Below, one piece after another: positions 5,010 to 22,752 of a stretch of DNA of 64,000 bases; positions within the stretch are counted from its first letter, which is position 1; every line of letters begins with the position of its first letter. The stretch comes from Clostridia bacterium (lineage in GTDB: Bacteria > Bacillota > Clostridia > Christensenellales > CAG-138). Position numbers and translations under genes: made by a program. The notes below the pieces were generated by a model, which saw only the letters and a list, made by a program, of their open reading frames with translations, was not told the DNA's origin and made no database searches. The DNA is taken from assembly GCA_017514685.1 (NCBI GenBank), contig JAFWJN010000012.1, positions 1 through 64,000 on the forward strand, given 5' to 3'.

Positions 5010-5038
5010 TTGCGGGACGGAGTCTCCGGTGATATACT
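5010..5038 (+). promoter_or_regulatory. Promoter of ksgA placing the transcript start at the ATG
   Basis: TTGCGG (5010-5015), 17-nt spacer, TATACT (5033-5038). The start codon at 5046 begins 8 nt after the last base of the -10 box, so the mRNA would have essentially no 5' untranslated region. Confidence 0.6.
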
Positions 5039-5045
5039 TTTAAAT

Positions 5046-5864: not shown

Positions 5865-5884
5865 CCAAAGAGAGGGACATTGTT

Positions 5885-6811: not shown

Positions 6812-6820
6812 CAAATAAAT

Positions 6821-6868
6821 AAAACAGCCTGGCTCAGCCAAAAGCTGAACCCGGCTGTTTTCATTTTT
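6821..6868. terminator. Bidirectional rho-independent terminator
   Basis: Inverted repeat AACAGCC-TGG-CTCAGC / GCTGA-ACCC-GGCTGTT with loop CAAAA, flanked by A-rich sequence on the left and TTTTCATTTTT on the right. It separates the convergent 5885 gene and pheB. Confidence 0.8.
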
Positions 6869-6875
6869 GGAAAGG

Positions 6876-7316: not shown

Positions 7317-7336
7317 AAGTTTCTCCTTTTCAAGAA

Positions 7337-8335
7337 TCAGCAGAGCAGTTCCGCAATCTGTACAGCGTTGGTTGCAGCGCCTTTACGGACCTGATCTCCG
7401 CAGCACCACAAATTCAAGCCGCGATCATCGGTCAGATCCTCACGGATACGTCCGACATAGACGAGATCCTGATCGGAGGTGTCAAGAGGCATCGGATAGA
7501 TCAGATTGGGAAGATCGTCCACGAGCTTACATCCTTTTGCAGAGGCGATCAGTTCCTTTGCATGCTGAACGGAAATCTTTTCTTTTGTTCTAAGCAGAAC
7601 AGAAACGCTGTGGCTTCTGATGACAGGCACACGGGCACAGGTGCAGCTGACTTTCATTTCCGGCAGATGCAGAATTTTACGGCCTTCGTTTTGCATTTTC
7701 ATTTCCTCGGAAGTATAGCCTTTATAAGCTTCACCGCCGATCTGAGGGATAATATTATATGCGATCTGATGAGCGAATACTTTCGGTTCGTAGCTCTCTC
7801 CACGGATATGCGCAGCTACTTCCTCCTCCAGTTCGACAGGACCTGCCGCACCGGCACCGCTGACTGCCTGATAAGAAGAAGCAACGATCGTTTCTATCGG
7901 GCTTTCCTTTGCTAGTGCATAGACGGCTATTAAGGTAATGATGGTTGTGCAATTGGGGTTGGAGATGATGCCCTTATGTAATTTAGCGTCTTCCGGGTTG
8001 ATCTCGGGAACGATCAAAGGCACATCTGGGTCAAGACGGAAAGCGGAAGAATTGTCAATAAAGACAGCGCCAGACTTTTTGATCGCCGGAGCAAACCGCT
8101 TGGCGATATCATTTTCTGCAGCTCCCAGAACGATATCCAGTCCGGAAAAAGCATCGTCTGAAGCTTCTACAATGGTCAGATCCTCTCCTTTGAACGGAAG
8201 TTTCTTTCCGGCGTTTCTGGCAGATGCCAATGGACGCAGAGATGCGACGGGAAAATTCCGTTCCGCTAGGATCTTCATCATTTCACGGCCAACGGCGCCT
8301 GTGGCACCGAGAATTCCGACGTTCAGCTGTTTCAT
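7337..8335 (-). CDS. asd: Aspartate-semialdehyde dehydrogenase
   Basis: Reduces aspartyl phosphate to aspartate semialdehyde with NADPH, the branch point to lysine and to threonine/methionine. Seen: N-terminal Rossmann motif GATGAVG, the active-site cysteine in SNPNCTTI (about 130), SSYQAVSGAG and the catalytic His in VPVIRSHSVSV. 332 residues, the usual length. The start at 8335 was chosen because AGAGGT lies just upstream and the protein then begins MKQLNVGILGATG. An ATG 12 codons further out has no ribosome site and would overlap hom. Confidence 0.95.
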   Translation of the reverse strand: MKQLNVGILGATGAVGREMMKILAERNFPVASLRPLASARNAGKKLPFKGEDLTIVEASDDAFSGLDIVLGAAENDIAKRFAPAIKKSGAVFIDNSSAFRLDPDVPLIVPEINPEDAKLHKGIISNPNCTTIITLIAVYALAKESPIETIVASSYQAVSGAGAAGPVELEEEVAAHIRGESYEPKVFAHQIAYNIIPQIGGEAYKGYTSEEMKMQNEGRKILHLPEMKVSCTCARVPVIRSHSVSVLLRTKEKISVQHAKELIASAKGCKLVDDLPNLIYPMPLDTSDQDLVYVGRIREDLTDDRGLNLWCCGDQVRKGAATNAVQIAELLC

Positions 8336-8367
8336 GAGATTTACCTCTTTTCTGTGATGGATTATAT

Positions 8368-9480
8368 TCAAACTTCAACGGTATAAGGCAGTTTTGCCAA
8401 AAGCGCCGTTGAATCAATTCCGCGCAGTTTGGAAAGAACATAGAAGGCGTTTGCAACAGAGAGACAGCGTACGGTATACGTGCCATTCGCACGGAAAAGC
8501 CAAGGACCTTCCGTTCCGGCATTGTCGATACCGCAATCGTCCAGAGAATGGTCATTGTAGAATGGCGGGCATCCGCGTTTGATTTCCATACAATCGGCGA
8601 GAACATTGGATGCTGTCGGATAATCGCCTGCGCCGGCACCGAAGAAGCTCTGTTTTCCGATATGTTCAGCATACAGGGACACCAGATTATAAATATCGTT
8701 TGTCTGAGCCTCTGTGGTCGCGGAAGGGAACAGGGTAGGGCAGACATAAGCGGAAATGCCGGAACCATGACGCTCGGCGCGGGCACTCAGCTTGAATACG
8801 AGATTCCGTTCTTTCGCCCAGGCGATATCCTCGGAGGAGAGAGTGGAAATGCCTTCGCAGGGGACATCCTGTTCATTTACGGAAATATCAAAAGCAAGAT
8901 TTGCGGATAGAACAAGTTTTCTGCGTGTATCGAATCCTTCCACATCATCGGTCGGATCGGCTTCGGCATATCCGAGTTCCTGAGCCTCTCTCAGCAATTC
9001 CGAATAATCGGCACCGCGGGCTGTCATTTCCGAAAGCATGTAATTGGTGGTGCCGTTCAGGATTCCTTCCACGGCATCCAGACGATCCATCGCGGCAGCG
9101 CGGTTGATGGACGGAAGCCAGGGAATGCCTCCTCCGGCAGCAGCTGTACAGCGCAGACAAACACCGTTCTGCTCGGCAAGCGAAATCAGTTCCTTATAGT
9201 GTGCGCAGACTACCATCTTGTTGGCAGTCACAACATGTTTCTTCGCGTTAAGCGCGGCATAGATATAATCGAAGGCAGGATGCATTCCACCAATCAGTTC
9301 AACAACGGTATCGATCTCAGGATCGTTCAGGATTTCATCAAAAGAATACACGACCTGACACGAAAGACCTTCCCGTTCTCTTCGTGAAAGAAGCGTCTTG
9401 ACACAGAAACCTTCCTGATTCAAAGTAAGCCGGTAGAAACTGGAACCGATCGTACCGAATCCTAAAAGCCCGATATTCAT
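8368..9480 (-). CDS. hom: Homoserine dehydrogenase, without ACT domain
   Basis: Reduces aspartate semialdehyde to homoserine. Seen: N-terminal nucleotide-binding GLLGFGTIG, VTANKMVV, the catalytic-domain segments GILNGTTNYM, EADPTDDVEGFDTRRK and GAGAGDYPTASNVLAD. The protein is 370 residues, shorter than the roughly 430 of the Bacillus enzyme. After the catalytic domain only about 60 residues remain, too few for a full ACT domain, so threonine feedback through that domain is unlikely. First gene of the minus-strand operon hom-asd-pheB, with AGGAGG before the ATG at 9480. Confidence 0.93.
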   Translation of the reverse strand: MNIGLLGFGTIGSSFYRLTLNQEGFCVKTLLSRREREGLSCQVVYSFDEILNDPEIDTVVELIGGMHPAFDYIYAALNAKKHVVTANKMVVCAHYKELISLAEQNGVCLRCTAAAGGGIPWLPSINRAAAMDRLDAVEGILNGTTNYMLSEMTARGADYSELLREAQELGYAEADPTDDVEGFDTRRKLVLSANLAFDISVNEQDVPCEGISTLSSEDIAWAKERNLVFKLSARAERHGSGISAYVCPTLFPSATTEAQTNDIYNLVSLYAEHIGKQSFFGAGAGDYPTASNVLADCMEIKRGCPPFYNDHSLDDCGIDNAGTEGPWLFRANGTYTVRCLSVANAFYVLSKLRGIDSTALLAKLPYTVEV

Positions 9481-9555
9481 AACGCACCAACCTCCTGTAG
9501 AACGACGACTCTTGTGTGTCCGCCGTAGAAAAACACTTGACTTTCAATGAAAAAC

Positions 9556-9584
9556 AATATATCATATGAACCACGAAAAAACAA
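9556..9584 (-). promoter_or_regulatory. Promoter of the hom-asd-pheB operon
   Basis: On the minus strand TTGTTT (9584-9579), 17-nt spacer, TATATT (9561-9556), giving a leader of about 70 nt. The divergent thrC start is at 9635. A plus-strand promoter for thrC must lie within 9570-9625 but only a weak TAAAAT (about 9606) is visible. Confidence 0.6.
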
Positions 9585-9634
9585 GAACTTTTTTTCAATG
9601 CGTTGTAAAATAAAAGTATGAAAGAGGAAGAAAT

Positions 9635-11122
9635 ATGTTTTATCAAAGCAGCCGGAGCGATGACCTGACAGCAACGTCCGCAAAATCGATTCTGGAGGGA
9701 ATTGCGCCGGATGGCGGACTGTATAGCGTAAAAGATCTTGACGGGGTAGGTTTTGACTGGAAAGCAGTACTGAAAATGGATACTCGCTCAATGGCAGTCA
9801 AAATTCTTTCAGCTTTGCTTCCATCCTTTTCCGAAGAAGAAATGAGGGCCATTGTCGAAGCGGGTTATCATGAAAAGTTCGACACAGAAGAACTGACTCC
9901 GACGGTTTCGGTCGGGGAAGATACGATTCTGGAACTGTTCCGCGGGCCGACAAGCGCGTTTAAGGATGTAGCGCTGTCTCTGCTTCCGAGACTGATGGTG
10001 GCTTCCGGACATAAATGCGGAAGCACGGATGAGATCCTGATTCTGACTGCGACAAGCGGAGACACGGGAAAAGCGGCCATGGAAGGCTTCCGGGATGTTC
10101 CAGGCACAAGAATTCTCGTCTTTTATCCATATGGAAGCGTCAGCCAGGTGCAGGAATTGCAGATGACGACACAGGAAGGCAAAAATGTACTGGCATGTGC
10201 GGTAAAGGGAAATTTCGATGACGCACAGCGGGGCGTCAAAAATATATTCGGCAACGCGCTGATCGCAGAAGAACTGAAGAAAAACGCAATCAGACTTTCA
10301 TCTGCCAACTCCATCAATATAGGACGTCTGGCACCGCAGGTGGTCTATTATTTCAAAGCTTATGCGGATCTGATTCAAAAAGGGACGATCCTGCTCGGAG
10401 AGAAAGTAGACTTTTGTGTTCCGACCGGAAATTTCGGAGATATTCTTGCAGGATATTTTGCCAAAGAACTGGGGCTGCCTGTAGGGAAACTGATCTGTGC
10501 GTCGAATGCAAATAATGTTCTGACGGATTTTCTGTCTACAGGACGATTTGACTCCCGGCGGGAATTCTTTAGAACAGAATCACCGTCTATGGATATTCTT
10601 GTTCCCAGCAATCTGGAACGTATGCTTTTTATGCTTTGCAAAGACGCTGCGCAGGTCAGCAACATGATGGCGTCACTGAAATCAGATGGAGTATACGAAG
10701 TACCGGAACAGATCTTTAACCGGCTGACGGATATTTTCTGGCCGGGATGCTGCGGAGATGAGGGTACTGAGCAGTCGATCGGAGAAGTGTGGAAACAGTT
10801 CGGTTATCTGATGGATACCCATACAGCTGTTGCGTGGAATGTCGCACAGCAATATAAAAAAGCGAATCCGGATCATGCCCCTGTTGTGATTCTATCCACG
10901 GCGTCTCCGTATAAGTTCCCTGAAGCGGTTTTAAGGGCAATTGGCGAATCAAAAGGGAAAGATCCGTTTGATGACATGGAGAAACTGAAAGAAGTTACGG
11001 GAACCGCAGTCCCGAAAAATCTTTCCGGATTAAGAGAAAGACCTGTCCGTCACCACGACGTGATAGAATGCAAAGATATGGCGGACTATGTCGTAAAGAT
11101 GGCGCTGAAGAAAGCATGGTGA
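9635..11122 (+). CDS. thrC: Threonine synthase
   Basis: PLP enzyme that turns O-phosphohomoserine into threonine. Seen: N-terminal SILEGIAPDGGLY, the PLP-lysine region GPTSAFKDVALSLLPRL (about 105), ATSGDTGKAA (about 145), and the phosphate-binding cup CVPTGNFGDILAGY (about 265). At 495 residues it belongs to the long (fungal/E. coli-like) class. Start ATG behind AGAGGAAG. Followed by thrH with a 4-nt gap, so the two form an operon that makes threonine from homoserine. Confidence 0.96.
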   Translation: MFYQSSRSDDLTATSAKSILEGIAPDGGLYSVKDLDGVGFDWKAVLKMDTRSMAVKILSALLPSFSEEEMRAIVEAGYHEKFDTEELTPTVSVGEDTILELFRGPTSAFKDVALSLLPRLMVASGHKCGSTDEILILTATSGDTGKAAMEGFRDVPGTRILVFYPYGSVSQVQELQMTTQEGKNVLACAVKGNFDDAQRGVKNIFGNALIAEELKKNAIRLSSANSINIGRLAPQVVYYFKAYADLIQKGTILLGEKVDFCVPTGNFGDILAGYFAKELGLPVGKLICASNANNVLTDFLSTGRFDSRREFFRTESPSMDILVPSNLERMLFMLCKDAAQVSNMMASLKSDGVYEVPEQIFNRLTDIFWPGCCGDEGTEQSIGEVWKQFGYLMDTHTAVAWNVAQQYKKANPDHAPVVILSTASPYKFPEAVLRAIGESKGKDPFDDMEKLKEVTGTAVPKNLSGLRERPVRHHDVIECKDMADYVVKMALKKAW

Positions 11123-11126
11123 GGAT

Positions 11127-11726
11127 ATGAATATCGTATGTCTTGATATGGAAGGCGTTTTAACGCCGGAGATCTGGATCGAATTTTCCAAAGTTAGCGG
11201 AATCCCGGAATTGTCACGTACAACGAGGGATGAACCGGATTATGATAAACTGATGCGATGGCGTATCGGAATTCTAAAAGAACGCGGATTTGGGATAAGG
11301 GAGATACAGAATGTAATTGCCAGGATCGATCCGCTGCCGGGCGCGAGGGAATTCCTGGATGAGTTAAGAAAAAGAACTCAGACGATCATTTTGAGTGATA
11401 CTTTTGAGGAGTTTGCCTTCCCGCTGATTGAGAAACTGGGGATGCCGACGATTTTCTGCAATTCGCTGGAAATCACGGAAAATGGAGAAATCACTGGCAT
11501 CAGAATGCGCTGCAAAGAATCAAAACTGACAACGGTCAAAGCACTGCAATCCATTGGTTTTGATACCATTGCAGTCGGAGACAGCTATAATGACCTCGGA
11601 ATGATCTTAAACAGCAAAGCCGGATTCCTTTTCCGTACAACACCAGCCATCAGAAAAGAGTATCCCATGCTGAAAGCGTTTGAGACCCATGAAGAACTTC
11701 TTGATGCTATCTGTCAAGTCTTGTAA
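11127..11726 (+). CDS. thrH: ThrH: phosphoserine phosphatase / homoserine phosphotransferase
   Basis: A 199-residue HAD-superfamily protein beginning LDMEGVLTPEIW, the ThrH form of HAD motif I with Glu two residues after the nucleophile Asp. Motif II is ILSDTFEEF (about 90), motif III lysine in the CKESKL region (about 130), motif IV VGDSYNDLGM (about 150). In Pseudomonas ThrH dephosphorylates phosphoserine and can pass the phosphate to homoserine, replacing ThrB. Its position directly behind thrC, with no thrB in this window, suggests it makes the phosphohomoserine that ThrC needs. Confidence 0.9.
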   Translation: MNIVCLDMEGVLTPEIWIEFSKVSGIPELSRTTRDEPDYDKLMRWRIGILKERGFGIREIQNVIARIDPLPGAREFLDELRKRTQTIILSDTFEEFAFPLIEKLGMPTIFCNSLEITENGEITGIRMRCKESKLTTVKALQSIGFDTIAVGDSYNDLGMILNSKAGFLFRTTPAIRKEYPMLKAFETHEELLDAICQVL

Positions 11727-11744
11727 AGAAGGTTCCATAGAGAA

Positions 11745-11777
11745 AGGCACCGGTATTTTGCCGGTGCCTGATTTATT
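11745..11777. terminator. Rho-independent terminator between convergent thrH and malQ
   Basis: Perfect 9-bp stem AGGCACCGG/CCGGTGCCT with a 7-nt loop, followed by GATTTATT on the plus strand and TTTCT on the minus strand. It can serve both genes. Confidence 0.8.
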
Positions 11778-11788
11778 GGTAGGATCGA

Positions 11789-13282
11789 TTATTTTGCTTT
11801 TTTCTTCGGACGAATTTCACAGCGTGCTGACATTTCCGCATAGTAGCGGATCCTGTCGCACAGTTCTTTTGTGAAATCGCTCTTCTGTGCACGGTATCTC
11901 CACCAGCCGGTAGAAGAGGGCATATTCATCCGGGATTCATTTCCGAGACCAAGGTAATCCTGCATCGGGATGATCGCAAGTTCCGCCACGGAATTCAGGA
12001 CCCCTCGGATAAAACCGAACGGCATTCCTTCCCGTTCATTCAGACCGAGATAGTTGACAGCAAACTCGATGCATTCCGGTGTTGTATCATCGACCCAGCC
12101 CATAATCGGTGAGTTGTCATGGGTTCCTGTATAGGCGATACAGTGGACAGGGTAATTATGAGGCAGTTCTCTGGAATCCGTCATCGGGTCAAAACCGAAC
12201 TGCATAACTCGCATTCCGGGAAGTCCTGAATCAGAGAGAAGCTTTTTCACTTCAGGCGTCAGGAATCCGAGATCTTCCGCAATCAGGCGGACTGTCGGAC
12301 AATGGGCTTTCAGTGCTCGGATCAGATCCATTCCGGGTGATGGATACCATTTCCCTGGACGGGCATCTTCTGAGCCATAAGGGACAGCCCAGAAGCTTTC
12401 AAGACCACGGAAGTGATCGATTCTGACAACATCAAATCTGGCACCGGTCCGTTCCAGACGATGGCACCACCAGGTAAAATTATCGCGGCGGTGCACATCC
12501 CAGTCGTAAACCGGATTTCCCCAGAGCTGGCCGAGCTCTGTAAAATAATCAGGCGGTACACCGGCCAGAAGACGGGGACGGTGCTGTTCATTCATGCAGA
12601 ACAGATATGGCTGTGTCCATACTTCCACGGAATCATGGGGAACATAGATCGGAAGATCGCCGATGATCGAAATCCCCTTTGCGTAGGCATATGATTTCAG
12701 GGCATCATACTGCTTTGAGAATTCATACTGCAGGAAACACTGAAAATCTATATCATGCACAAGCATCTGCCTGTAGTATGTGATTGCGATCGGTTCTCTC
12801 GATACGATGGCTTCATCATCCCATTCATACCAGGGACGGTTGTCAAAATGGGTCTTGAGCGCCGTAAAAAGAGCGTATTCTTCAAGCCAATCCGAATTCT
12901 GCTCACGGAAAGACAGCATCTTACGCCGGTCGAAGCGTTCAAAAGCCTTCCGGAGAACATCATAGCGGTTTTCCCAGAGTTTTCCGAAATCAACATTTTT
13001 AGGATCGTTGCCCCAGTCACGATCACATTCTTCCTCCGTAAGGAGTCCTTCCTCAACCAGAAGATCAAGATCGATCAAATATGGGTTGCCTGCAAAGGAA
13101 CAAGCACTCTGATAAGGGGAATCGGAATACCCGGTCGGTGTCAGAGGAAGCATCTGCCAGTAACTCTGACCTGACTCCTTCAAAAAATCAACGAATGCAA
13201 AAGCTTCCTTGCCCATGGTCCCGATTCCGTATTTTCCGGGAAGGGACGAGATGTGCATGAGAATACCACAGGAGCGTTTCAT
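11789..13282 (-). CDS. malQ: 4-alpha-glucanotransferase (amylomaltase, GH77)
   Basis: Transfers alpha-1,4-glucan chains and releases glucose in maltodextrin and glycogen metabolism. Seen: N-terminal RSCGILMHISSLPGKYGIG, the substrate-loop region SYWQMLPLTPTGYSDSPYQ (about 40), nucleophile region FDVVRIDHFRG (about 288), general acid Glu in LIAEDLG (about 338) and transition-state Asp in YTGTHDN (about 390). 497 residues, usual. Single gene on the minus strand with its own promoter at 13342. No other maltodextrin genes are adjacent, though the divergent GH31 gene also acts on alpha-glycosides. Confidence 0.96.
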   Translation of the reverse strand: MKRSCGILMHISSLPGKYGIGTMGKEAFAFVDFLKESGQSYWQMLPLTPTGYSDSPYQSACSFAGNPYLIDLDLLVEEGLLTEEECDRDWGNDPKNVDFGKLWENRYDVLRKAFERFDRRKMLSFREQNSDWLEEYALFTALKTHFDNRPWYEWDDEAIVSREPIAITYYRQMLVHDIDFQCFLQYEFSKQYDALKSYAYAKGISIIGDLPIYVPHDSVEVWTQPYLFCMNEQHRPRLLAGVPPDYFTELGQLWGNPVYDWDVHRRDNFTWWCHRLERTGARFDVVRIDHFRGLESFWAVPYGSEDARPGKWYPSPGMDLIRALKAHCPTVRLIAEDLGFLTPEVKKLLSDSGLPGMRVMQFGFDPMTDSRELPHNYPVHCIAYTGTHDNSPIMGWVDDTTPECIEFAVNYLGLNEREGMPFGFIRGVLNSVAELAIIPMQDYLGLGNESRMNMPSSTGWWRYRAQKSDFTKELCDRIRYYAEMSARCEIRPKKKAK

Positions 13283-13341
13283 ATGTATTCCTTTCTGAAC
13301 AAAATTTGAAATAAGGAATCAACTTTCTTATTACGTTTGGT

Positions 13342-13370
13342 ATTATACAAAAAATGAAGGATGTTTACAA
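13342..13370 (-). promoter_or_regulatory. Promoter of malQ
   Basis: On the minus strand TTGTAA (13370-13365), 17-nt spacer, TATAAT (13347-13342), with the ATG about 60 nt downstream. The flanking TTGTAAACATCC resembles half of a catabolite-repression site but lacks the central CG, so I do not call one. Confidence 0.75.
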
Positions 13371-13467
13371 GCATAAAACACAGGTATGAATAGAATTAAC
13401 AGCAGGAATTCATTTGTGTGTCCAGAATAATGATGTTTTGTATCAGATAAAATGACATTAGCGAAAT

Positions 13468-13519
13468 AATGCGAGCAACGCATTGACAGATTGACTTTTT
13501 GATCAACTTTTGCTATCCT
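13468..13519 (+). promoter_or_regulatory. Promoter of the GH31-symporter operon with operator-like dyad
   Basis: TTGACT (13491-13496), 17-nt spacer, TATCCT (13514-13519). Just upstream of the -35 box is the inverted repeat AATGCG-AGCAA-CGCATT (13468-13484), a likely regulator site. No regulator gene is adjacent. The rest of the 13283-13551 gap is AT-rich, with nothing else I can name. Confidence 0.6.
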
Positions 13520-13551
13520 TGTAAAGAACAAGTAAAGAGGAAGAGTGGGAC

Positions 13552-15528
13552 ATGAAAGATCTGATCATCAATGAGCGTTCCTGGCTAATAAAAACGGATG
13601 GAAGGATTGCTGTACAGCATACTCCGGATCAGCCTTTTGCAACAGTTCTTAAAAGAGAGAAGACATATGTAACAGACCGTGGTTCCGTAAAGGAAACGAT
13701 CAGTGTGACGGAAACATCTCCATTGACGGAATTTGAAGAAAAAGGAGAAGAACTGATTTTATCCGGAAGCGGGCATGAGCTCAGAATCTGGATCGAACAA
13801 GCTGAGAGAGGCATTGTTCTTCGTTTCACTGGAGAAAAGGGATTTGCATACCGCTTCAATCTGCCTGCGGAAGAGAAAGAAGCTGTATTCGGCGGCGGAG
13901 AACAGTACCGGCAGGTCAATCTCAGAGGAGAGCAGGTCGTTAATTTCGTATCGGAACATATCACGGTCAAAACAATTCTTGAAAAAGCAATCAAGCCTCG
14001 TTTTATGTACCGGGAAAAGAAGGCTTCAGAGATAGGAAGTTATGCCCCCATGCCTGTGTTTGTTACCGACACAGGACGCTTGATACGCTTTGATGTCGGT
14101 TCCGACGGTGTTTCCGTGTTTCGGAAGGAGCCGTTTTCGTTCACTTTTGATGCGTGCCCCAAAGACCTGACGATATTGTTCGGGGATTCCTTTGAGGAAC
14201 TGCTGACCCGATATACTGAGCGTTATCCGAACAGGATGGGCGTTCCTGAATGGTGCCATGACGGTATGATCCTGGGCGTGCAGGGCGGAACGGAAGCAAT
14301 TCTTTCAAAAGCTTTTGCGATGCTGGACGCAGGGGCAAAGGTATCTGCAGTATGGAGCCAGGACTGGTCAGGCGAAAACCGTACGGTTATGGGAAAACAG
14401 GTCTGGTGGAACTGGGAAGTGGATGAGAGACTCTATCCCGATCTCAAAGGCGCGATTGAGAAGTTGAACCAACGGGGTGTTCGCTTCCTTGCGTATATTA
14501 ATCCTTATCTTGTCAAGGATGGAAGACTGTATGAAGTTTGCAGAGAGAAGGGTTATCTGATCACCAGAACAGACGGTTCTGTTTATCACATCCGATCCAC
14601 GACCTTTGATGCCGGCATGCTGGATCTGACAAACCCTGACGCGGTCCGCTACATCAAGGATGAACTGATCAAAAAGAACATGCTTGATCTTGGGATCAGC
14701 GGATGGATGGCAGACTTCGGAGAATACCTTCCGGTGGATTGTGTGCTTCATGACGGAGATCCGAAAGCACTTCATAATCAGTGGCCGGTTCTCTGGGCAA
14801 AGGTGAACAGGGATGCGATTGAAGAGTCAGGAAAAGATGACATTATGTTCTTCATGAGATCCGGATACCTGGGAATCCAGAATTACGCTCAGATCCTGTG
14901 GAACGGGGATCAGCACACGGATCTGACGAAAGATTACGGGATGCCTTGCGTGATGCCCGCTAGCTTTTCACTGGGCTTTTCGGGGGTTCCGGCCGTCCAT
15001 TGCGATATCGGCGGATTCTTCTCGATCGGCAAGCTGAAACGGAATGAGGAACTATTTACCCGCTGGATGGAAATGTGCACATTCTCACTCATGATGCGCA
15101 GCCATGAATCCATTCGCCCGTGGGCAAACGCTCAGTTTGACGCGCCTTCGGTGATTCCGCACACGGTCCGGCTGACCAATATCTTTGCTGCGCTTAAGCC
15201 TTACCGGCTGGAGCAGGAGATGAAACTGAAAAAAGGAATCCCGCCGATGCGTCCGGATTTCTGGAAGTCGGGCAAGTTCGATGCTTCCAAAGATCCGTAT
15301 TCCTATTTCTTCGGAGAGGACCTTTTCATCTGCCCGGTCATAGAATATAAGGCAAAGCAGAGAAAAGTTTCCCTTCCAGAGGGAGAATGGGTGCATTTGT
15401 GGACGGGGAAACCGTATTCAGGGAATACATCATTTACGATCGACGCACCCGTAGGATATCTTCCTGTGTTTTACAGAAAAGACAGCAGTTATTCGGAACT
15501 GTTTGAATCTATGAAAAATAAGCAATGA
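13552..15528 (+). CDS. GH31 alpha-glycosidase, YihQ (sulfoquinovosidase)-like but with altered sulfonate site
   Basis: 658 residues. An N-terminal beta-sandwich (about 1-230) precedes the (beta/alpha)8 barrel. The order of motifs follows E. coli YihQ: GVQGGT, SQDWSG (about 269), FLAYINPYL, nucleophile Asp388 in GWMADFGEYLP, acid/base Asp453 in WNGDQHTD, DIGGFF. Catalytic residues are intact, so it should be an active retaining alpha-glycosidase. As I recall them, true sulfoquinovosidases share Arg, Trp and Tyr around the sulfonate (E. coli R301, W304, Y508). Here the aligned residues are Gln283, Trp286 and Phe489, so a sulfoquinovoside substrate is doubtful. No signal peptide: it acts in the cytoplasm on a glycoside brought in by the symporter 23 nt downstream. 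Start behind AAGAGGAAG. Confidence 0.88.
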   Translation: MKDLIINERSWLIKTDGRIAVQHTPDQPFATVLKREKTYVTDRGSVKETISVTETSPLTEFEEKGEELILSGSGHELRIWIEQAERGIVLRFTGEKGFAYRFNLPAEEKEAVFGGGEQYRQVNLRGEQVVNFVSEHITVKTILEKAIKPRFMYREKKASEIGSYAPMPVFVTDTGRLIRFDVGSDGVSVFRKEPFSFTFDACPKDLTILFGDSFEELLTRYTERYPNRMGVPEWCHDGMILGVQGGTEAILSKAFAMLDAGAKVSAVWSQDWSGENRTVMGKQVWWNWEVDERLYPDLKGAIEKLNQRGVRFLAYINPYLVKDGRLYEVCREKGYLITRTDGSVYHIRSTTFDAGMLDLTNPDAVRYIKDELIKKNMLDLGISGWMADFGEYLPVDCVLHDGDPKALHNQWPVLWAKVNRDAIEESGKDDIMFFMRSGYLGIQNYAQILWNGDQHTDLTKDYGMPCVMPASFSLGFSGVPAVHCDIGGFFSIGKLKRNEELFTRWMEMCTFSLMMRSHESIRPWANAQFDAPSVIPHTVRLTNIFAALKPYRLEQEMKLKKGIPPMRPDFWKSGKFDASKDPYSYFFGEDLFICPVIEYKAKQRKVSLPEGEWVHLWTGKPYSGNTSFTIDAPVGYLPVFYRKDSSYSELFESMKNKQ

Positions 15529-15551
15529 ACAAAGGGAAAGGATAAGGAAAA

Positions 15552-16988
15552 ATGGAATCGAACAAAGAGTCTTCCTACATTGCCTCGACAAGCGGCATCA
15601 AGGCTAAGGATAAGATCGGCTATGCAATGGGTGATCTTGCGAGCTGTCTGGTGTTCGGACTGACGCAGAGCGTGCTGAACAAGTATTATACGGACGTTCT
15701 TGAGATCGGCGTATTGAGCGTCATGATCATGACAATCATTGCACGTATCTGGGATGCAATCAACGATCCGATCTGGGGTCGGATCATCGATGGCGCAAAA
15801 CCCCGCAAAGACGGCAGATACCGTCATTGGATCAAAGTGTTTGCAATTCCTGTTGCGCTTGCGGCTGTGTTGATGTTTGCAAATGTGACCGGATTTGCAG
15901 CAGGCGGCAAACTGGCGTGGATCTACATTACCTATATTCTGTTCGGGATGCTGTACACCTGTATCAATATTCCTTATGGCTCTCTTGCTCAGGTCATCAC
16001 ATCCAACGATAAGGAGCGCTCTTCACTGTCTGTTTTCCGGTCGATCGGTTCTACTTTCGGGGCCATGCCTGCGATGGTACTTGCTTCCATGTGCTATGTC
16101 AAACTTGCGGACGGTTCCAGCCAGATGGATTATACTCGGGTGTTCATAGGCGTTGTGATCATTGCTGCGCTTTCTGTATTGGCATACTTTTTGTGCTATC
16201 TCTGGACCAAAGAGCGTGTGGAATCCAAACCGGCTCCAAGGGAGAAAGGGAACACCAAAAAGGTCATCAAGACTTTATTGAAGAGCCGTCCGTTCATGGC
16301 GGTCAGCCTTGCTTCCATGCTGTTTCTGGCAGCGCAGATGTTCGGACAGGGATATAATACCTATCTGTTCCATCATTATTTCAACGCTCCGGGACTCACG
16401 ATGCTCCCGACTGTATTTCAATATCTTCCGGTAGCGATCGTCATGTTCTTCGCAACAAAGATGGGCAACCGATTCGGACGCAGGGAAGTCTGCTCTTACG
16501 GAATCCTGCTTGCCGCTGTATTCTATATCGTACTGTTCGTTCTGGCACTATTCGGAATCACGAATGTCTGGCTGTATCTGACGGCTTGCCTGATGAGCGG
16601 AATCGGAACGGCATTCATCTTCCTTCTGATCTGGGTACTGGCAACGGATGCGATCGATTATAATAAAGTCGAGTTCGGGCTGAATGACGAGGCGACAAGT
16701 TACGCATTCTACTCATTTATGAGAAAACTGGGTCAGACGGTTGCGACGATTCTGATCAATGTTCCGCTTCTTAGAATCGGATATAACGGAAGTGAACTGA
16801 AAACGGAAGGACTCAGTGCTGAGGCGCTGAAGAGCATGTATAATTCATCCGTTATGATCCCGGCGGTTCTGTTCCTGCTCGTGTTTATCCTGCTCCGATT
16901 TGTATATCCTCTTGGAAAGAAACAGATCGATGAGATGCAGGAAAAGAAAGAAAAGCTGTTTTCACAAAAATCATCCGCTGATGAATAA
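15552..16988 (+). CDS. GPH-family sugar:cation symporter (MelB/YihO-like)
   Basis: 478 residues with about 12 membrane helices. It starts with the family hallmark KDKIGYAMGDLASCLVFG, followed by DAINDPIWGRIID and the loop GRYRHWI, all typical of glycoside-pentoside-hexuronide:cation symporters (MelB, UidB, XylP, YihO). The C-terminal cytoplasmic tail is charged. It is the second gene of the GH31 operon, so it most likely imports the glycoside that the GH31 enzyme cleaves. The exact sugar and coupling ion cannot be told from sequence. Confidence 0.9.
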   Translation: MESNKESSYIASTSGIKAKDKIGYAMGDLASCLVFGLTQSVLNKYYTDVLEIGVLSVMIMTIIARIWDAINDPIWGRIIDGAKPRKDGRYRHWIKVFAIPVALAAVLMFANVTGFAAGGKLAWIYITYILFGMLYTCINIPYGSLAQVITSNDKERSSLSVFRSIGSTFGAMPAMVLASMCYVKLADGSSQMDYTRVFIGVVIIAALSVLAYFLCYLWTKERVESKPAPREKGNTKKVIKTLLKSRPFMAVSLASMLFLAAQMFGQGYNTYLFHHYFNAPGLTMLPTVFQYLPVAIVMFFATKMGNRFGRREVCSYGILLAAVFYIVLFVLALFGITNVWLYLTACLMSGIGTAFIFLLIWVLATDAIDYNKVEFGLNDEATSYAFYSFMRKLGQTVATILINVPLLRIGYNGSELKTEGLSAEALKSMYNSSVMIPAVLFLLVFILLRFVYPLGKKQIDEMQEKKEKLFSQKSSADE

Positions 16989-17013
16989 GGAAACGGTTTT
17001 GAAATAAAACGGG

Positions 17014-17050
17014 AAAAAGGCTCACTTCCATGGAGGAAGGGAGCCTTTCT
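17014..17050. terminator. Bidirectional terminator between symporter and isomerase genes
   Basis: Stem AAAGGCTC-A-CTTCC / GGAAG-G-GAGCCTTT with loop ATGGA, A-run on the left and TTTCT on the right. It separates two convergent genes. Confidence 0.8.
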
Positions 17051-17067
17051 AACGGAAACAGTAAGGA

Positions 17068-18408
17068 TCAGTAGCGAACGACATCCATTTTCAGCATTGC
17101 GGCAAGATGGGAAAGCGTGTCGGCATGATGTCCCTGAATGACTACATAGTGAGGTTCAAAGCCAAGCTGGACAGAGTCTTCCACGATTTTCCGGCAGGAG
17201 GAATCAGAACGGATCACAATGGATGTCCCGATGAACTGCTTGGGCTTATCCAGAGCTTCCCCTTCAAACAGGAAGAAACGGAACGTCCCATCCGGTTCTC
17301 GGCCGATCCGGAAAACAGTAGCCTCCGGAAACGCTTCACAGCCGAAATCCATCGCCGGTCCGATTTTGCGGTTTGGATGAACTCCGACCGTTGCGCCGGT
17401 GTCTTTTCTGGCAAGCGAGCAGGCAGCGGCACCGCAGTGCCAGTAGGTGATGGTGTTCTCTTCTTCATTCAGGGATACGGGATCTCCGAAGAAGACAGGC
17501 TTCTTGCTGAGCTGCATGCCAAGCCACATGGAAAGAGCACCGTAGATATCAGCCTCGCAGGCGGCAGCGATACCGTCATCGTTCAGAAGGGAAAGAACCG
17601 TGCAGACCGGAGTACCGAATGCAGTAAAAAAGTCAGGCCAGCAGCGGGAAGCCAATGCCCCAATTCCGTGGCCTTGGACAAATTCCGTATAGGCACGGTA
17701 GAGTTTCGCATGGTCGATCCTGTTATGAGCAGGAGTCTCACAAAGGCCACAGGTTGCAGATTCGGTCTTTTGATCATAGGAAAGACATTCTTCATCCGGA
17801 TAGGATTTTGCCAGATCGATCAGTTCCCTGGCTTCGATGCTCTCCAGCGTAACGCCGAAGGATGTCATCAGTTCGGAGTCAAGCGCACGGCCGAAGCCGA
17901 ATCCTTCCGGCGTGTGACCGACCGCGGCCAGCCGGAGATGCTTCATGGCATGAACACACTCAGCAGCGTGGACAGCGGATGCCAGCTGATGCTGAACAGA
18001 TTCTTCTTCCGGCATGCCGAATATATAAGGAAATTGCCGGATCCCGAAAGTACGCATGGCGTTGGCTGCGGAGTATGCGCCGGTCAGAGAATTCAGACGA
18101 AGCCTTCCACCGTCAATGACGGGTTCCCGAAGCGTCCATAGAGCGACCGGGCAGTGACAGAGATGCATGACCTCGGTCATATATGCGGAATTGGAGAAGG
18201 TTACATTCTGAAAAACAATCAGATCCGGCTGAAGATCTTCCAAAAAGGACCGTACTTTATCAACTCCGAGAAGAATTCCGTCGGGACAGACAAAACGGTC
18301 ATCTGTTTTTTTAAGAAGCGCCATAGACGCATAAAAACGGTCGGCTGCGCTTTCCATATGGAAAGTCGGTACGCCGACAGGAACATAGACTGGTAAAAAT
18401 GGTTTCAT
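17068..18408 (-). CDS. FucI/AraA-superfamily sugar isomerase (sulfoquinovose-isomerase-like candidate)
   Basis: 446 residues from the ATG at 18408, chosen because GGAGGT lies 5 nt upstream (an ATG at 18420 overlaps that site). The C-terminal half carries the L-fucose/L-arabinose isomerase pattern: SRCWPDFFTAFG (about 258), the metal-ligand Glu in AACEADIYGALSM (about 287), the Asp in PVFFGDP and the metal-ligand His in ITYWHCGAA (about 325). N-terminal residues form the Rossmann-like substrate domains. Such enzymes interconvert aldoses and ketoses with Mn2+. From its neighbours it would turn the hexose released by GH31 into the ketose used by the split transketolase. From memory, the isomerases of the sulfo-TK and sulfo-TAL pathways belong to this superfamily. 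Confidence 0.75.
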   Translation of the reverse strand: MKPFLPVYVPVGVPTFHMESAADRFYASMALLKKTDDRFVCPDGILLGVDKVRSFLEDLQPDLIVFQNVTFSNSAYMTEVMHLCHCPVALWTLREPVIDGGRLRLNSLTGAYSAANAMRTFGIRQFPYIFGMPEEESVQHQLASAVHAAECVHAMKHLRLAAVGHTPEGFGFGRALDSELMTSFGVTLESIEARELIDLAKSYPDEECLSYDQKTESATCGLCETPAHNRIDHAKLYRAYTEFVQGHGIGALASRCWPDFFTAFGTPVCTVLSLLNDDGIAAACEADIYGALSMWLGMQLSKKPVFFGDPVSLNEEENTITYWHCGAAACSLARKDTGATVGVHPNRKIGPAMDFGCEAFPEATVFRIGREPDGTFRFFLFEGEALDKPKQFIGTSIVIRSDSSCRKIVEDSVQLGFEPHYVVIQGHHADTLSHLAAMLKMDVVRY

Positions 18409-18435
18409 GATTACCTCCATATTTCGATTAGTAAC

Positions 18436-18464
18436 ATCATAATCAAATCAGCGAAATCTGTCAA
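18436..18464 (-). promoter_or_regulatory. Promoter of the isomerase gene
   Basis: On the minus strand TTGACA (18464-18459), 17-nt spacer, TATGAT (18441-18436). It is back to back with the transketolase promoter at 18496. AATCAAAT occurs in both (18441-18448 and 18510-18517), which could be a shared regulator half-site. Confidence 0.75.
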
Positions 18465-18495
18465 CGGAATTAAAAATGATTTGCAGTTCTGTCTG

Positions 18496-18524
18496 TTGAC
18501 ATTTATGAGAATCAAATATAAGAT
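18496..18524 (+). promoter_or_regulatory. Promoter of the transketolase-RpiB-permease operon
   Basis: TTGACA (18496-18501), 17-nt spacer, TAAGAT (18519-18524), with the first start codon 33 nt after the -10 box. Confidence 0.75.
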
Positions 18525-18556
18525 AACTTGGGATTTAAAGAGAGAGGGTGATCTGG

Positions 18557-19408
18557 TTGGCTCAGGATTTGAATTACATTTCAAAAGTGCTTCGAAGCGA
18601 TATCGTAAAGAGCATCGGTCAGGTCGGAGTGGGGCATATCGGTGGAAGCCTGTCTATCGTCGAACTGCTTACAGTGCTCTATTTTGAGGAGATGAACATA
18701 GATCCAAAGAATCCTCAGATGCACGGAAGGGACCGTCTGATTTGTTCGAAAGGACATGCGGGACCCGCTGTATATGCTGCTTTGGCTGAAAAGGGCTATT
18801 TTGACAGGGAAGTGCTGTGGACGCTGAACAAAGGCGGTACCCATCTTCCAAGTCATTGTGATATGAATCTGACACCCGGGATCGATATGACGACCGGAAG
18901 CCTTGGACAGGGCTTTTCATGCGCAGTTGGTTGTGCGCTTGGCTCAAAACTGGAAGATGACGGAGCGACAATCTATACGATCATCGGAGACGGTGAATCG
19001 CAGGAAGGTCAGATTTGGGAAAGCGCAATGTTCGCAGGAAACTATCATTTGTCCAATCTGATCGCGTTTACCGATTGCAACGGACTGCAGGTTGACGGGA
19101 ATGTCAGCGATGTCGGAAATCTAGAACCTTTGGCTGCGAAGTGGCGTGCATTTGGCTGGAACGTGATTGAAACGGAAAACGGAAATGATCTGGAACAGGT
19201 CCGGCATGCTGTAAAAACAGCAAAATTGAACAGGGCGACCGAAAAGCCTACCATGGTTCTATTGCATACAGTAAAGGGATGTGGTGTATCCTTTGTAGAA
19301 GCGAAAGGAGCAGCGAACCATAACGCTCCCTTCTCAAAAGATGATGCGGTCAGGGCTCTGGGTGAAATCTGGGGCGAAGGCAGTAAGGAGGCAGAGTTAT
19401 GGAAATGA
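18557..19408 (+). CDS. Transketolase, N-terminal (TPP-binding) subunit
   Basis: Residues make up the thiamine-diphosphate domain of a two-subunit transketolase: VGVGHIGGSLSIVELL (about 22), ICSKGHAGPAVY (about 58), GIDMTTGSLGQGFS (about 110) and the TPP motif GDGESQEGQIWES (about 145). The TTG at 18557 is preferred to a GTG at 18548 because GGTGATC (18547-18553), an excellent Shine-Dalgarno, would lie inside the longer version. It overlaps the partner subunit by 10 nt. Together they move a two-carbon ketol unit between sugars. The setting (isomerase, RpiB-like protein, GH31) suggests a dedicated catabolic enzyme instead of, or beside, the housekeeping pentose-phosphate one. Confidence 0.88.
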   Translation: MAQDLNYISKVLRSDIVKSIGQVGVGHIGGSLSIVELLTVLYFEEMNIDPKNPQMHGRDRLICSKGHAGPAVYAALAEKGYFDREVLWTLNKGGTHLPSHCDMNLTPGIDMTTGSLGQGFSCAVGCALGSKLEDDGATIYTIIGDGESQEGQIWESAMFAGNYHLSNLIAFTDCNGLQVDGNVSDVGNLEPLAAKWRAFGWNVIETENGNDLEQVRHAVKTAKLNRATEKPTMVLLHTVKGCGVSFVEAKGAANHNAPFSKDDAVRALGEIWGEGSKEAELWK

Positions 19409-20322
19409 GAGCGGCATATGCCGAATGCATGGCAAAACTCATGGAGCAGGATCCGAAGGTGATCGTTTTGGATGCGGATCTAGCGAATTCAACTGCAATG
19501 AGAAAACTCTATCCGCGTTTTCCGAAGCAGATGTTTGAGTGCGGTATTGCGGAGCAGAGTATGTGTTCCATCGCCGCAGGTCTTTCCGCATACGGCTTTA
19601 AACCCTATATTGAGACATTTGCGCCTTTTGCTTCAAGAAGAATCTGCGATCAGGTTTCGATTTCGGTCGCATATGCAAAACAGAACGTGAAGATTGTAGG
19701 AACGGATGGAGGAATCGGAGCGGAGCTGAACGGGGGTACCCATATGTCCGTTGAGGATATCGCAGTACTCAGGTCCATTCCGGGAATCATCATATTTGAG
19801 CCCTGTGATGAGATTCAGGTCAGAAAAGCAATCCCGGTTATCAACTCATATCAGGGACCCGTTTATATCAGGCTTTTCAGAAAAGAACTTCCGGCTGTAT
19901 TTACTGAAGATTATCAGTTTGAACTCTTCAAAGCGGACCTGTTAAAACCGGGAAAAGATCTTTCTGTCTTTGTATCCGGAATTCCGGTGTCTGACACGCT
20001 GGAAGCGGCAAAAGAACTGGAAGCGGAAGGAATCAAATGCGAAGTGATCAACGTTCATACGATCAAGCCGGTTGACCGCGAAACAGTACTGTCTTCAGCA
20101 AAGAAGACAGGTGCAGTTTTAACTGTGGAGAACCATAATGTTATCGGCGGACTTCATTCGGCAATCACGGAGACCCTGAGCAGAGAGCGTATTCCGTGTT
20201 ATGCGGTTGGAATTGAGGATCGGTTCTGTGAAGTAGGGAAACTGCCTTATTTGAAGGAAACGTTCGGTTTTACAAAAGAAAACATCAAAAACGCCATGAG
20301 AAATGCGTTCAATAGTAAATGA
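19399..20322 (+). CDS. Transketolase, C-terminal (pyrimidine-binding) subunit
   Basis: 307 residues: pyrimidine domain with the catalytic Glu in CGIAEQSM (about 50), then a C-terminal domain from about 185 (LSVFVSG, VENHNVIGGLHSA). AAGGAGG precedes the ATG. The substrate loop reads GTDGGIGAELNGGTHMS (about 100-117), whereas ordinary split transketolases have G(S/T)HxGxxxGEDGxxHQ. The first His is Asp and the GED triplet is ELN, so the sugar-binding site differs from the standard enzyme. The phosphate-side GPVYIRLFR is kept. This supports a special ketose donor, but the exact substrate is inferred from context only. Confidence 0.87.
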   Translation: MEMRAAYAECMAKLMEQDPKVIVLDADLANSTAMRKLYPRFPKQMFECGIAEQSMCSIAAGLSAYGFKPYIETFAPFASRRICDQVSISVAYAKQNVKIVGTDGGIGAELNGGTHMSVEDIAVLRSIPGIIIFEPCDEIQVRKAIPVINSYQGPVYIRLFRKELPAVFTEDYQFELFKADLLKPGKDLSVFVSGIPVSDTLEAAKELEAEGIKCEVINVHTIKPVDRETVLSSAKKTGAVLTVENHNVIGGLHSAITETLSRERIPCYAVGIEDRFCEVGKLPYLKETFGFTKENIKNAMRNAFNSK

Positions 20323-20350
20323 AGTTTTTTATTCGGAAAGGAAACAGAAA

Positions 20351-20827
20351 ATGAAACTTGCAATCGGAAGTGATAAATCCGGATTTACCGTGAAAGAAGC
20401 ACTGAAAGCATATCTTTTGAGTGCGGGAATTGAATTTGATGATCTAGGAACGACGGATCTCGAACATGTTGTTCCGTACTATGCTGTCGCAAGTAAAGTT
20501 GCCCCGCTGGTACAGGATGGAACATATGAGAAAGCCGTTCTGATCTGCGGAACAGGTGCGGGCATGTCTGTCGTATCGAATAAATTTAAGGGAGTATACG
20601 CAGTCGCGTGCGAAGGTATTTATTCGGCAAAAATGGCAAGAGCGATCAATAATGCGAATATTCTCTGCATGGGAGGATGGATCGTAGGACCGGAGATTGC
20701 CGTGGAAATGGTAAAAACGTTCCTGAATACAGAATGGTGCCAGGATCTGGAAGACTGGCGCAAAGAGAACATGAAAAAGTTTGCTGTTCAAGTGAAAGCA
20801 ATCGAGGAAAAGACCTGTAAGGACTGA
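20351..20827 (+). CDS. RpiB/LacAB-family isomerase with altered active site (SqwI-like candidate)
   Basis: 158 residues, start at 20351 behind GGAAAGGAAA, so about 28 nt after the transketolase stop. The fold is clearly RpiB: IGSDKSGF, the proton-transfer Cys66 in LICGTGAGMS, GGWIVGPEIA. Two ribose-5-phosphate features are missing. The His of the usual GxDHxGF is Lys9, and the RQHND segment that carries the ring-opening His in E. coli RpiB reads RAINN (97-101). The enzyme should therefore act on a sugar that needs neither phosphate binding nor ring opening, such as a 4-deoxytetrose. That is what the sulfo-TK pathway gives to its RpiB-like isomerase. Confidence 0.8.
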   Translation: MKLAIGSDKSGFTVKEALKAYLLSAGIEFDDLGTTDLEHVVPYYAVASKVAPLVQDGTYEKAVLICGTGAGMSVVSNKFKGVYAVACEGIYSAKMARAINNANILCMGGWIVGPEIAVEMVKTFLNTEWCQDLEDWRKENMKKFAVQVKAIEEKTCKD

Positions 20828-20847
20828 CTGTAAAAAGATAGGATCCA

Positions 20848-21762
20848 ATGAATAGGCGCGTACAGAACGGCATACTGATCGGCGGGATGATTCTTTGCTG
20901 GTCCATATTCTATGCTGTATCCAAATTTGCTGTGGATGCAATTGGATCTCCTTATCTCGCGGGAGGTCTGCTTCGTGGCGCTGCCTTGATTTTCCTGACA
21001 GCTCAGCTTTTTATCATGGGAAAGGCCGGGCAGCTTTTTAAACAGGGAAAAACGATCTGGATTCTGTTTATTATCGGAACGATTGGATTTCTTGGGGATC
21101 TTTTTGCAAATCTGGGATACGCGAAAGGTTCTCTTGGAACAGGAACGGCTCTTCTGAAGACAGATGTCCTGATGGCGAATCTCGTGACCGTTCTGATCTA
21201 CAGAAAGAAGCTGACAGCGTTCGACTGGCTTGGGACGTTTGTAATGCTGTTCGGGGTCTTGCTCGTGCTGAACTTTGATTTTGCAACTGCTGAGTTCCAT
21301 GTGTATGACCTGTTCTTCCTGCTCAGTGCGGGAAGTCTTGCAGCGAATGCTTTTGTGATCAAGATCGCTCAGCAGAAATATCATAAGGACCCTGATATGA
21401 TTTCCTATTTTAACAACCTCACGGTTCTGACTTTGTTTATGATCGCTTCCTGGATTGGCGGTGATTTGAACCGGACGGGGGATGTAATCAGGGATTTTCC
21501 ATGGCAGATCCTTCTGGGAGGGCTTGCTCAGACAGGAATTTACTTTTTCTATTACCGGAATCTTCAGAGACATGAAGTGTGGAAAGTCAAGCTGTATTTG
21601 CTCCTGATGCCTGTAGTAAGCTGTATGTTCGGCGTGATTTTCTTCCGTGAGACTCTGACGGTTCGCTCACTTATCGGGATTGCTGTCGTCCTGCTGGGAG
21701 CGGGGTTGCTGCTGGTTAAAAGCAGACTGGAAAACAGAAAGACAGAAAACGCCGCCCAATGA
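20848..21762 (+). CDS. DMT-superfamily (EamA) permease
   Basis: 304 residues with about ten membrane helices in two EamA repeats, e.g. GGLLRGAALIFLTAQLF in repeat 1 and FRETLTVRSLIGIAVVLLGAGLLLV near the end. Start ATG 20 nt after the RpiB-like stop, last gene of the transketolase operon. DMT permeases move many metabolites in either direction. In this setting export of the pathway's end product, or import of a related compound, is plausible but unproven. Confidence 0.8.
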   Translation: MNRRVQNGILIGGMILCWSIFYAVSKFAVDAIGSPYLAGGLLRGAALIFLTAQLFIMGKAGQLFKQGKTIWILFIIGTIGFLGDLFANLGYAKGSLGTGTALLKTDVLMANLVTVLIYRKKLTAFDWLGTFVMLFGVLLVLNFDFATAEFHVYDLFFLLSAGSLAANAFVIKIAQQKYHKDPDMISYFNNLTVLTLFMIASWIGGDLNRTGDVIRDFPWQILLGGLAQTGIYFFYYRNLQRHEVWKVKLYLLLMPVVSCMFGVIFFRETLTVRSLIGIAVVLLGAGLLLVKSRLENRKTENAAQ

Positions 21763-21834: not shown

Positions 21835-22752
21835 ATGATGAATCAGGCATATTTACAGCTTTCGCCGGAAGTCGAAGCAGCATTGAAGTCAGGGAAACCT
21901 GTCGTTGCACTGGAAAGTACGATTATTTCACACGGGATGCCGTATCCGCAGAATGTGGAAACAGCACTCAGCTGTCAGAGAATCTGCCGTGAGAACGGAG
22001 CGGTTCCCGCTACCTGCGCAATAATCGGAGGGAAACTTTGCGCGGGTCTGACGGATGAACAGATCGATTACCTTGGAAGAGAAGGAACGAGAGTCACAAA
22101 AGCATCCAGAAGAGATCTCCCCTTGCTGACGGCCAAAGGAATGGACGGTGCGACGACGGTGGCGGCGACCATGATTATTGCTGCCATGGCCGGAATCCGC
22201 ATTTTTGCAACAGGTGGAATCGGAGGAGTTCACCGCGGAGCGGAAGTTACAATGGATATTTCCGCTGATCTGGAGGAGCTTGCAAAAACTCCGGTATGTG
22301 TTGTATGTGCCGGGGCAAAAAGCATACTGGATCTGGGCCTTACCATGGAGTATCTGGAAACAAAAGGCGTTCCGGTTATTGGTTTCGGTACGGATGAATT
22401 ACCTGCGTTCTATACACGTAAAAGCGGATTTGCTGTCCCGTGGAGATGCGATAAACCGGAAGAAATCGCAAAAGCAATCTGCGCTCAGCGCGAGATCGGG
22501 TATGACGGCGGCATGCTGGTGGTCAATCCGATTCCTGAAGAATATTCCATGGATGCTGAAGTAATCGGCAAAGCAATCGAAGAAGCGCTTGAAGAGGCAA
22601 AACAGCTCGGAATCAAAGGGAAAGAGACAACGCCGTTCCTTCTTGCAAAAATCAAGGATTTGACTGGCGGAGAGAGCCTTGCATCCAATATTCAGCTTGT
22701 GTTCAATAATGTAGCGCTCGCATCTCAAATTGCCTGTTCGCTGAACGGATAA
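21835..22752 (+). CDS. psuG: Pseudouridine-5'-phosphate glycosidase
   Basis: PsuG cleaves the C-C glycosidic bond of pseudouridine 5'-phosphate to uracil and ribose 5-phosphate. The 305-residue length and conserved blocks match: PVVALESTIISHGMPYP (about 22), VTKASRRDL (about 85), DGATTVAATM, FATGGIGGVHRGAE (about 125), GAKSILDLGLT, VIGFGTDELPAFY (about 182) and the active-site Asn region GMLVVNPIPEEYS. No psuK kinase is next to it. Start may be either of two adjacent ATGs (21835, 21838). Ends before a strong terminator at 22816. Confidence 0.95.
   Translation: MMNQAYLQLSPEVEAALKSGKPVVALESTIISHGMPYPQNVETALSCQRICRENGAVPATCAIIGGKLCAGLTDEQIDYLGREGTRVTKASRRDLPLLTAKGMDGATTVAATMIIAAMAGIRIFATGGIGGVHRGAEVTMDISADLEELAKTPVCVVCAGAKSILDLGLTMEYLETKGVPVIGFGTDELPAFYTRKSGFAVPWRCDKPEEIAKAICAQREIGYDGGMLVVNPIPEEYSMDAEVIGKAIEEALEEAKQLGIKGKETTPFLLAKIKDLTGGESLASNIQLVFNNVALASQIACSLNG

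Follow-up and report, generated by a model that had tools for sequence, protein, structure and literature searches.

The stretch of DNA analysed here (the window) comprises the first 64,000 nucleotides of contig JAFWJN010000012.1 from a Clostridia bacterium (assembly GCA_017514685.1, genome G000 below) and contains seven genes that very probably make up a divergent operon for the transketolase type of sulfoglycolysis (sulfo-TK), acting on glycosides of sulfoquinovose (SQ) and lacking a linked reductase. On the plus strand a GH31 gene of the YihQ subfamily (13552..15528), assigned by model NF007746 and an alignment of the active site, is followed by a GPH-family symporter found by profile search, the presumed glycoside importer (15552..16988). 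The minus strand then carries a predicted SftI-type sulfoquinovose isomerase of the FucI superfamily (17068..18420), after which the plus strand resumes with a SqwG-like transketolase N subunit that has a GTG start (18548..19408), a SqwH-like transketolase C subunit overlapping it (19399..20322), a SqwI-like sugar isomerase of the RpiB family (20351..20827, its open reading frame (ORF) running from 20303 with the start probably at 20351) and an EamA/DMT permease, again found by profile search, that is presumed to export a two-carbon (C2) sulfonate (20848..21762). All seven ORFs are open and the families found by profile search agree with the expected gene types, so the inventory given by an earlier, sequence-only reading of this DNA (a GH31, a GPH symporter, a FucI-superfamily isomerase, a split transketolase, an RpiB-like isomerase and a DMT permease) stands in full. 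Its description of the symporter as YihO-like holds for the GPH family, the likeness to YihO itself is weak with 26% identity to YihO and 27% to YihP.

The isomerase gene is alone on the minus strand, diverging from the transketolase operon and converging with the symporter gene. In the gap between the isomerase and transketolase genes lies one promoter-like site per strand, TTGACA-17-TATGAT for the isomerase (18436..18464, minus strand, 11 of 12 matches) and TTGACA-17-TAAGAT for the transketolase operon (18496..18524, plus strand, 10/12), in line with the two back-to-back promoters proposed previously; the stretch as a whole has 13 sites of this kind where 10.1 are expected, a count that is no evidence by itself. 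A further site 5' of the GH31 gene (TTGACT-17-TATCCT, 13491..13519, plus strand) is weak with 9/12 matches, and shuffled sequences yield about as many. An inverted repeat at 17016..17048, between the convergent symporter and isomerase genes, may be a two-way terminator; it was picked out by eye and is not among the results of a terminator scan.

The only NCBIfam match of the isomerase is NF048012 (SftI), with an E-value of 2.3e-113 and 379 bits over the full length, and at a threshold of 1e-40 this model has no match in any of 14 control genomes. The Pfam domain Fucose_iso_C scores 25.9 bits, below its cut-off of 29.3, and no credible relative with a solved structure was found. Counterparts at 69-80% identity occur in 17 of the 23 genomes of the genus, the window's own counted (16 others), one of which, G011, carries the isomerase on two contigs (C7 and C13) and has an estimated contamination of 6%. 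The isomerase is also 52% identical to that of locus L078, which scores alike on the SftI model (394 bits) and adjoins a transaldolase and a DUF4867 gene, both recognised by Pfam, and a GH31, together with genes labelled by eye as a 3-hydroxyisobutyrate dehydrogenase-like reductase, a TauE-like permease and a ROK gene. This is the layout of the transaldolase type of sulfoglycolysis (sulfo-TAL). Much more distant, at only 24-28% identity to that of the window, are the isomerases of L214-L226, a set that includes L215 with its adjoining transketolase.

In a tree of transketolase C subunits the window protein shares a clade with L215 and with clusters from the rumen (support 98/92, with long branches elsewhere in the tree), and the split transketolases L211 and L212 of the same genome fall outside it. 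The sequence-only reading had held that grouping of the transketolase and RpiB-like genes with housekeeping pentose-phosphate enzymes would speak against a dedicated pathway; for the transketolase no such grouping with the genome's other copies is seen. The motif R-A-F-D-R has been reported for sulfofructose transketolase (PMC11659671), it is present in 68 of 74 cluster rows, with one more row that misses the first letter, and 6YAJ, a solved split transketolase, has His where the cluster transketolases have Asp. A second split transketolase of the genome lies at L212 (G000:C60:1-16000, 3271-13105) in a FucI-like neighbourhood, where epimerase-type TIM barrels, a DeoC-like gene and two nearly identical nucleoside phosphorylase-like genes can be recognised by eye. 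A different combination is found at L097 (G248, 9344-16096), where a FucI-type isomerase (27%) and a split transketolase with His in the motif occur with genes that look by eye like an aldehyde ferredoxin oxidoreductase, a TIM barrel, ComA (phosphosulfolactate synthase) and an ABC transporter; this is perhaps another pathway for a sulfonated sugar.

The RpiB-like protein has Lys at one and Ile (81 rows) or Val (1 row) at the other of two positions in all 82 rows of at least 55% identity, where three aligned RpiB proteins of solved structure have His at both; we take these two His to be catalytic. The two RpiB-family paralogs of G000 have His and His (L212) and Pro and Ser (L194) there. Close relatives of the protein (E at most 1e-38) are present in 16 of 396 genomes of the order, and many of them adjoin an alcohol dehydrogenase (ADH), a ROK gene, another FucI-type isomerase, DUF4867, DMT and GH31. 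Twenty-four SqwI-like rows group together in the RpiB-like tree (94/80), with the two paralogs of G000 on branches of length 10, so it is identity and residues that set the protein apart from the housekeeping enzymes, a tree with two such long branches proves little. The activity of SqwI is stated not to have been measured directly (PMC9594981). The family names alone would also fit ordinary pentose-phosphate genes that lie together by chance, but the transketolase does not group with the other copies in the genome, the RpiB-like protein has changed residues and the synteny is conserved, which makes this next to impossible.

Synteny was examined in a scan of named genomes that yielded 566 relatives, of which the best 80 were kept, so that the counts describe the nearest loci only; the gene maps of the relatives rest on tblastn. 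Where an animal source is stated for these loci it is a ruminant. The transketolase N subunit is present in 77 of the 80, the C subunit in 74 and the RpiB-like gene in 67, several contigs ending early. Next after the RpiB-like gene comes an iron-containing ADH in 58 loci; 6 have none even though the contig continues, and in the remainder there is either a contig edge (3) or no RpiB-like gene in the stretch examined (13). DMT is found in 52 loci, ROK in 39 and DUF4867, a family that occurs in SQ clusters and elsewhere too (PMC11968277), in 29. Of 15 mapped loci of the same genus, 11 have the ADH after the RpiB-like gene, 11 have ROK and 10 have DUF4867. A phosphorylase-superfamily gene (PF01048, ~250 amino acids, L065:880-1632 for example) lies beside the isomerase in 11 of the 15 and is absent from the loci of the window, G018 and G002. 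Genes for a reductase, a dehydrogenase and a regulator are all lacking in the window's cluster, as had been observed before; since many loci of relatives carry the reductase or the regulator, their lack is a matter of lineage and not the mark of another pathway. Directly after the DMT gene, at 21835-22752, the window has a gene of the Indigoidine_A family, presumably a pseudouridine-5'-phosphate glycosidase, for which no counterpart was matched in the loci of relatives.

The sulfo-TK pathway as described from Clostridium sp. MSTE9 and Faecalicatena (SqvD, SqwGH, SqwI and SqwF) shares with the window the isomerase, the split transketolase and the RpiB-family isomerase, and its iron-containing ADH, DMT permease and regulator are matched in the window's relatives (PMC11659671, PMC9594981). 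Compared by description and not by sequence, it differs in that the window-type isomerase is nearer to the SftI model; there is no transaldolase in the window's cluster. Furthermore, a rumen study (PMC13219744), as far as its accessible text goes, reports that Ca. Limivicinus (Oscillospiraceae) transcribes sqwG, sqwH and sqwI in mixed microcosms fed with SQ, that these microcosms made ~7 mM isethionate, and that 35.5% of 313 Ca. Limivicinus genomes have the sulfo-TK pathway. The pathway is thus known, and already in print for rumen Oscillospiraceae; what is newer here is a clade of GH31 proteins and a lineage without the ADH, both of which are described below.

Together the isomerase model, the canonical GH31 found beside the same core in relatives, the transketolase clade, the residues of the RpiB-like protein and the rumen study (PMC13219744) argue for SQ as the substrate, and the sulfo-TK half of the alternative left by the sequence-only reading is thereby favoured. 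Gene families, synteny, the transketolase clade and the active-site letters are read directly from the DNA; from them we infer what each protein acts on and which way the two transporters work. The GPH symporter would import an alpha-sulfoquinovoside, from which the GH31 would free SQ, and the SftI-type isomerase would convert SQ to 6-deoxy-6-sulfofructose. The split transketolase would then pass a first C2 unit on to glyceraldehyde 3-phosphate, what is left being 4-sulfoerythrose, which the RpiB-like SqwI would isomerise to 4-sulfoerythrulose, and the transketolase would take a second C2 unit so that sulfoacetaldehyde remains. The resulting C2 sulfonate would leave the cell via the DMT permease.

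A number of observations weigh against this interpretation. The 379 bits of the isomerase are far below the SftI cut-off of 700, and the window transketolase has R-S-F-D-R and the loop TDGGIGA in place of R-A-F-D-R and TDPGISA. The Asp of this motif also occurs in the second transketolase of the genome (C-F-D-R), it is not diagnostic alone and was dropped as evidence that the sugar is sulfonated. In G000, a genome that is 82.6% complete, the best match to the neighbours' ADH reaches no more than 37% identity. The likeness to the characterised sulfo-TK enzymes rests on their descriptions and not their sequences, the clusters used for comparison, L078 included, are known from sequence alone, and the likeness to Ca. 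Limivicinus, in the accessible text of that study, consists of a rumen Oscillospiraceae origin and sulfo-TK genes, the window's genus not being matched by name. Finally there is the GH31 itself, in which, as the sequence-only reading had pointed out, two residues of the sulfonate site are replaced, Arg301 of YihQ by Gln and Tyr508 by Phe.

Arg301, Trp304 and Tyr508 of YihQ are presumably the residues that bind the sulfonate. The window GH31 scores 611 bits against the YihQ model NF007746, whose cut-off is 553, and shares with Escherichia coli YihQ and Eubacterium rectale SftG (GH31; 5AED, 6PNR) the subfamily, the catalytic Asp pair (D405 and D472) and Trp304; it differs from them in the two replaced residues and in being 35-39% identical to YihQ. 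That conserved residues recognise the sulfonate is stated in PMC11968277, the abstract of which names none of them. Over the 80 named loci (the unnamed loci L063-L077 partly repeat named ones) 26 have Arg-Trp-Tyr only, 27 have Gln-Trp-Phe only, two (L152 and L168) have both types and 25 have none or an incomplete gene. On a tree of the core genes, a quick tree of 73 of 84 loci without bootstrap, the two types switch at least six times (52 rows, those with two copies being left out).

In a quick tree of the GH31 proteins the Gln-Trp-Phe sequences, with L214 and the incomplete L216, are set on a long stem of 1.41 (support 100 in the Shimodaira-Hasegawa-like approximate likelihood ratio test, SH-aLRT), and this group also takes in clusters from other families of the order. 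Just outside it, L078 and L086 have Gln-Trp-Tyr, as does L214, where position 262 is a Glu, so the change from Arg to Gln is common to other sulfo-type clusters and that from Tyr to Phe is specific to the group. The clusters from other families (L214, L216, L218, L219 and L221-L226) contain a SqwI-like gene, a ROK gene and the distant FucI-type isomerase (24-28%), mostly together with ADH (not in L222), DUF4867, DMT and GH31, the last with Gln-Trp-Phe in 6 of 8 examined; there is no transketolase within these loci, a related split transketolase (41-51%) is found elsewhere in the genome. A parallel is provided by the GH188 sulfoquinovosidases, where a subgroup with a changed letter in the sulfonate site lies inside sulfoglycolytic clusters, although GH188 is a different glycosidase family and the sulfonate contact is made there via the backbone (PMC11465081). 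In some Ca. Limivicinus species, too, there are two yihQ copies in distinct clades, like the two types in L152 and L168 (PMC13219744).

The altered site could mean that the Gln/Trp/Phe clade cleaves glycosides of another glucose substituted at C6, with the transketolase pocket and the exporter of the window's lineage adapted to that sugar. This we consider very unlikely; if true, the scheme of two transketolase cleavages would have one more substrate. In its other branch the sequence-only reading had proposed that the transketolase route serves a neutral hexose, 6-deoxy or modified at C6 in some other way, and ends in acetaldehyde or a similar C2 compound, which would account for Gln/Trp/Phe replacing Arg/Trp/Tyr, for the changed letter of the transketolase motif and for the failure to find a SqwF-like gene in the window's lineage. 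However, of 132 conserved columns in the isomerase 131 are intact, DUF4867 is present in 29 of the 80 nearest loci, and the same core has a canonical YihQ beside it in 26, the ADH in 58 and ROK in 39, so this branch is not sustained and has to be regarded as highly improbable. No described family of transketolases for neutral 6-deoxyhexoses was found for comparison in the open-licence PubMed Central literature, and neither the Gln-Trp-Phe GH31 group nor a lineage without the ADH was found in print there.

Returning to the sulfo-TK interpretation, the fate of the C2 product is where the window's lineage departs from its relatives. In the window, in L064/L109 (G002) and in L188 (G018) the RpiB-like gene and DMT have no ADH between them, and G000, G018 and G002 form one clade in the core tree (SH-aLRT 100). 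The dedicated ADH is present in 13 of the 23 genomes of the genus and in none of these three. SqwF and SqwKL were not found in G000 at its stated completeness, SqwD not being searched for, and the legend to the cluster figure for Ca. Limivicinus names SqwF (PMC13219744), which the window does not have. The one PF13607 match in G000 was considered as SqwKL and set aside, it reads by eye as an ordinary SucC-SucD pair. L188 (G018:C42, 934-9654) carries beside its DMT gene an AraC regulator, DUF4867 and a GPH-type transporter; an alpha-L-rhamnosidase-like gene and a PfkB-like kinase can also be recognised there by eye.

The window's cluster might simply be a sulfo-TK cluster in decay, as the ADH, ROK, phosphorylase-superfamily (PNP-like) and DUF4867 genes that occur in 11, 11, 11 and 10 of the 15 same-genus loci are missing from it. 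Conserved columns, defined as those kept in at least 97% of the other rows, do not bear this out. In the isomerase, where the comparison covers 85 other rows and six of these belong to clusters of other types, 131 of the 132 are kept; the window also keeps 85/85 in the RpiB-like protein, 174/175 in the symporter, 120/123 and 119/127 in the transketolase N and C subunits, 220/227 in the GH31 and 115/125 in the DMT permease, and with seven open frames and most conserved columns kept in each, decay would seem very unlikely.

Rather than another sugar, the same sugar may have another ending. As a refinement of the sulfo-TK interpretation, sulfoacetaldehyde in G000, G018 and G002 would be oxidised or otherwise handled instead of being reduced by SqwF, and the exporter would have followed; we regard this as unlikely, though it deserves to be kept in mind. 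Besides the lack of ADH at the loci of this one clade, it is favoured by the conservation of the upstream genes and by the exporter, in which both lineage rows have changed at 8 of 125 columns; nine further lineages, each represented by two to four loci, have 0-2 changes in 114-117 columns, where a column counts as changed when every row of the lineage departs from it. The transketolase was at first sight a second such mark, with 3 of 127 columns changed (A31S, G33A and P104G), but ten other lineages, some of them with the ADH, show 0 to 11 of 123-130, and after this control its changes are unremarkable and no longer support a different ending.

A further point in favour of another ending is that G000 has, on a contig other than the window's, at L192 (G000:C45:45001-60000, 4745-9993), an aldehyde ferredoxin oxidoreductase, an iron-containing ADH fused to 4Fe-4S ferredoxin domains and a tungstate-binding TupA. 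The oxidoreductase is, however, restricted to G000 among the 23 genomes of the genus and a relative of the fused ADH to G000 and G018, so that as a replacement for SqwF it is a lead only. Loss of the linked ADH is moreover recurrent, with at least eight changes on the core tree, and is seen even between the near-identical cores of L184 and L180, and for this reason the loss alone says little. A general alcohol dehydrogenase could serve unseen, and the genomes are few and only 71 to 90% complete.

According to the accessible text of the rumen study most rumen yihQ amplicons fall in a "long branch" (PMC13219744). A GH31 clade in which two of three residues at the sulfonate site are replaced is relevant wherever yihQ serves as a marker for sulfoquinovose degradation in the rumen. 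The lineage to which the window belongs keeps the enzymes of the sugar side with no C2 reductase found, and in these bacteria the fate of sulfoacetaldehyde, and hence what is fed to the producers of sulfide, may differ.

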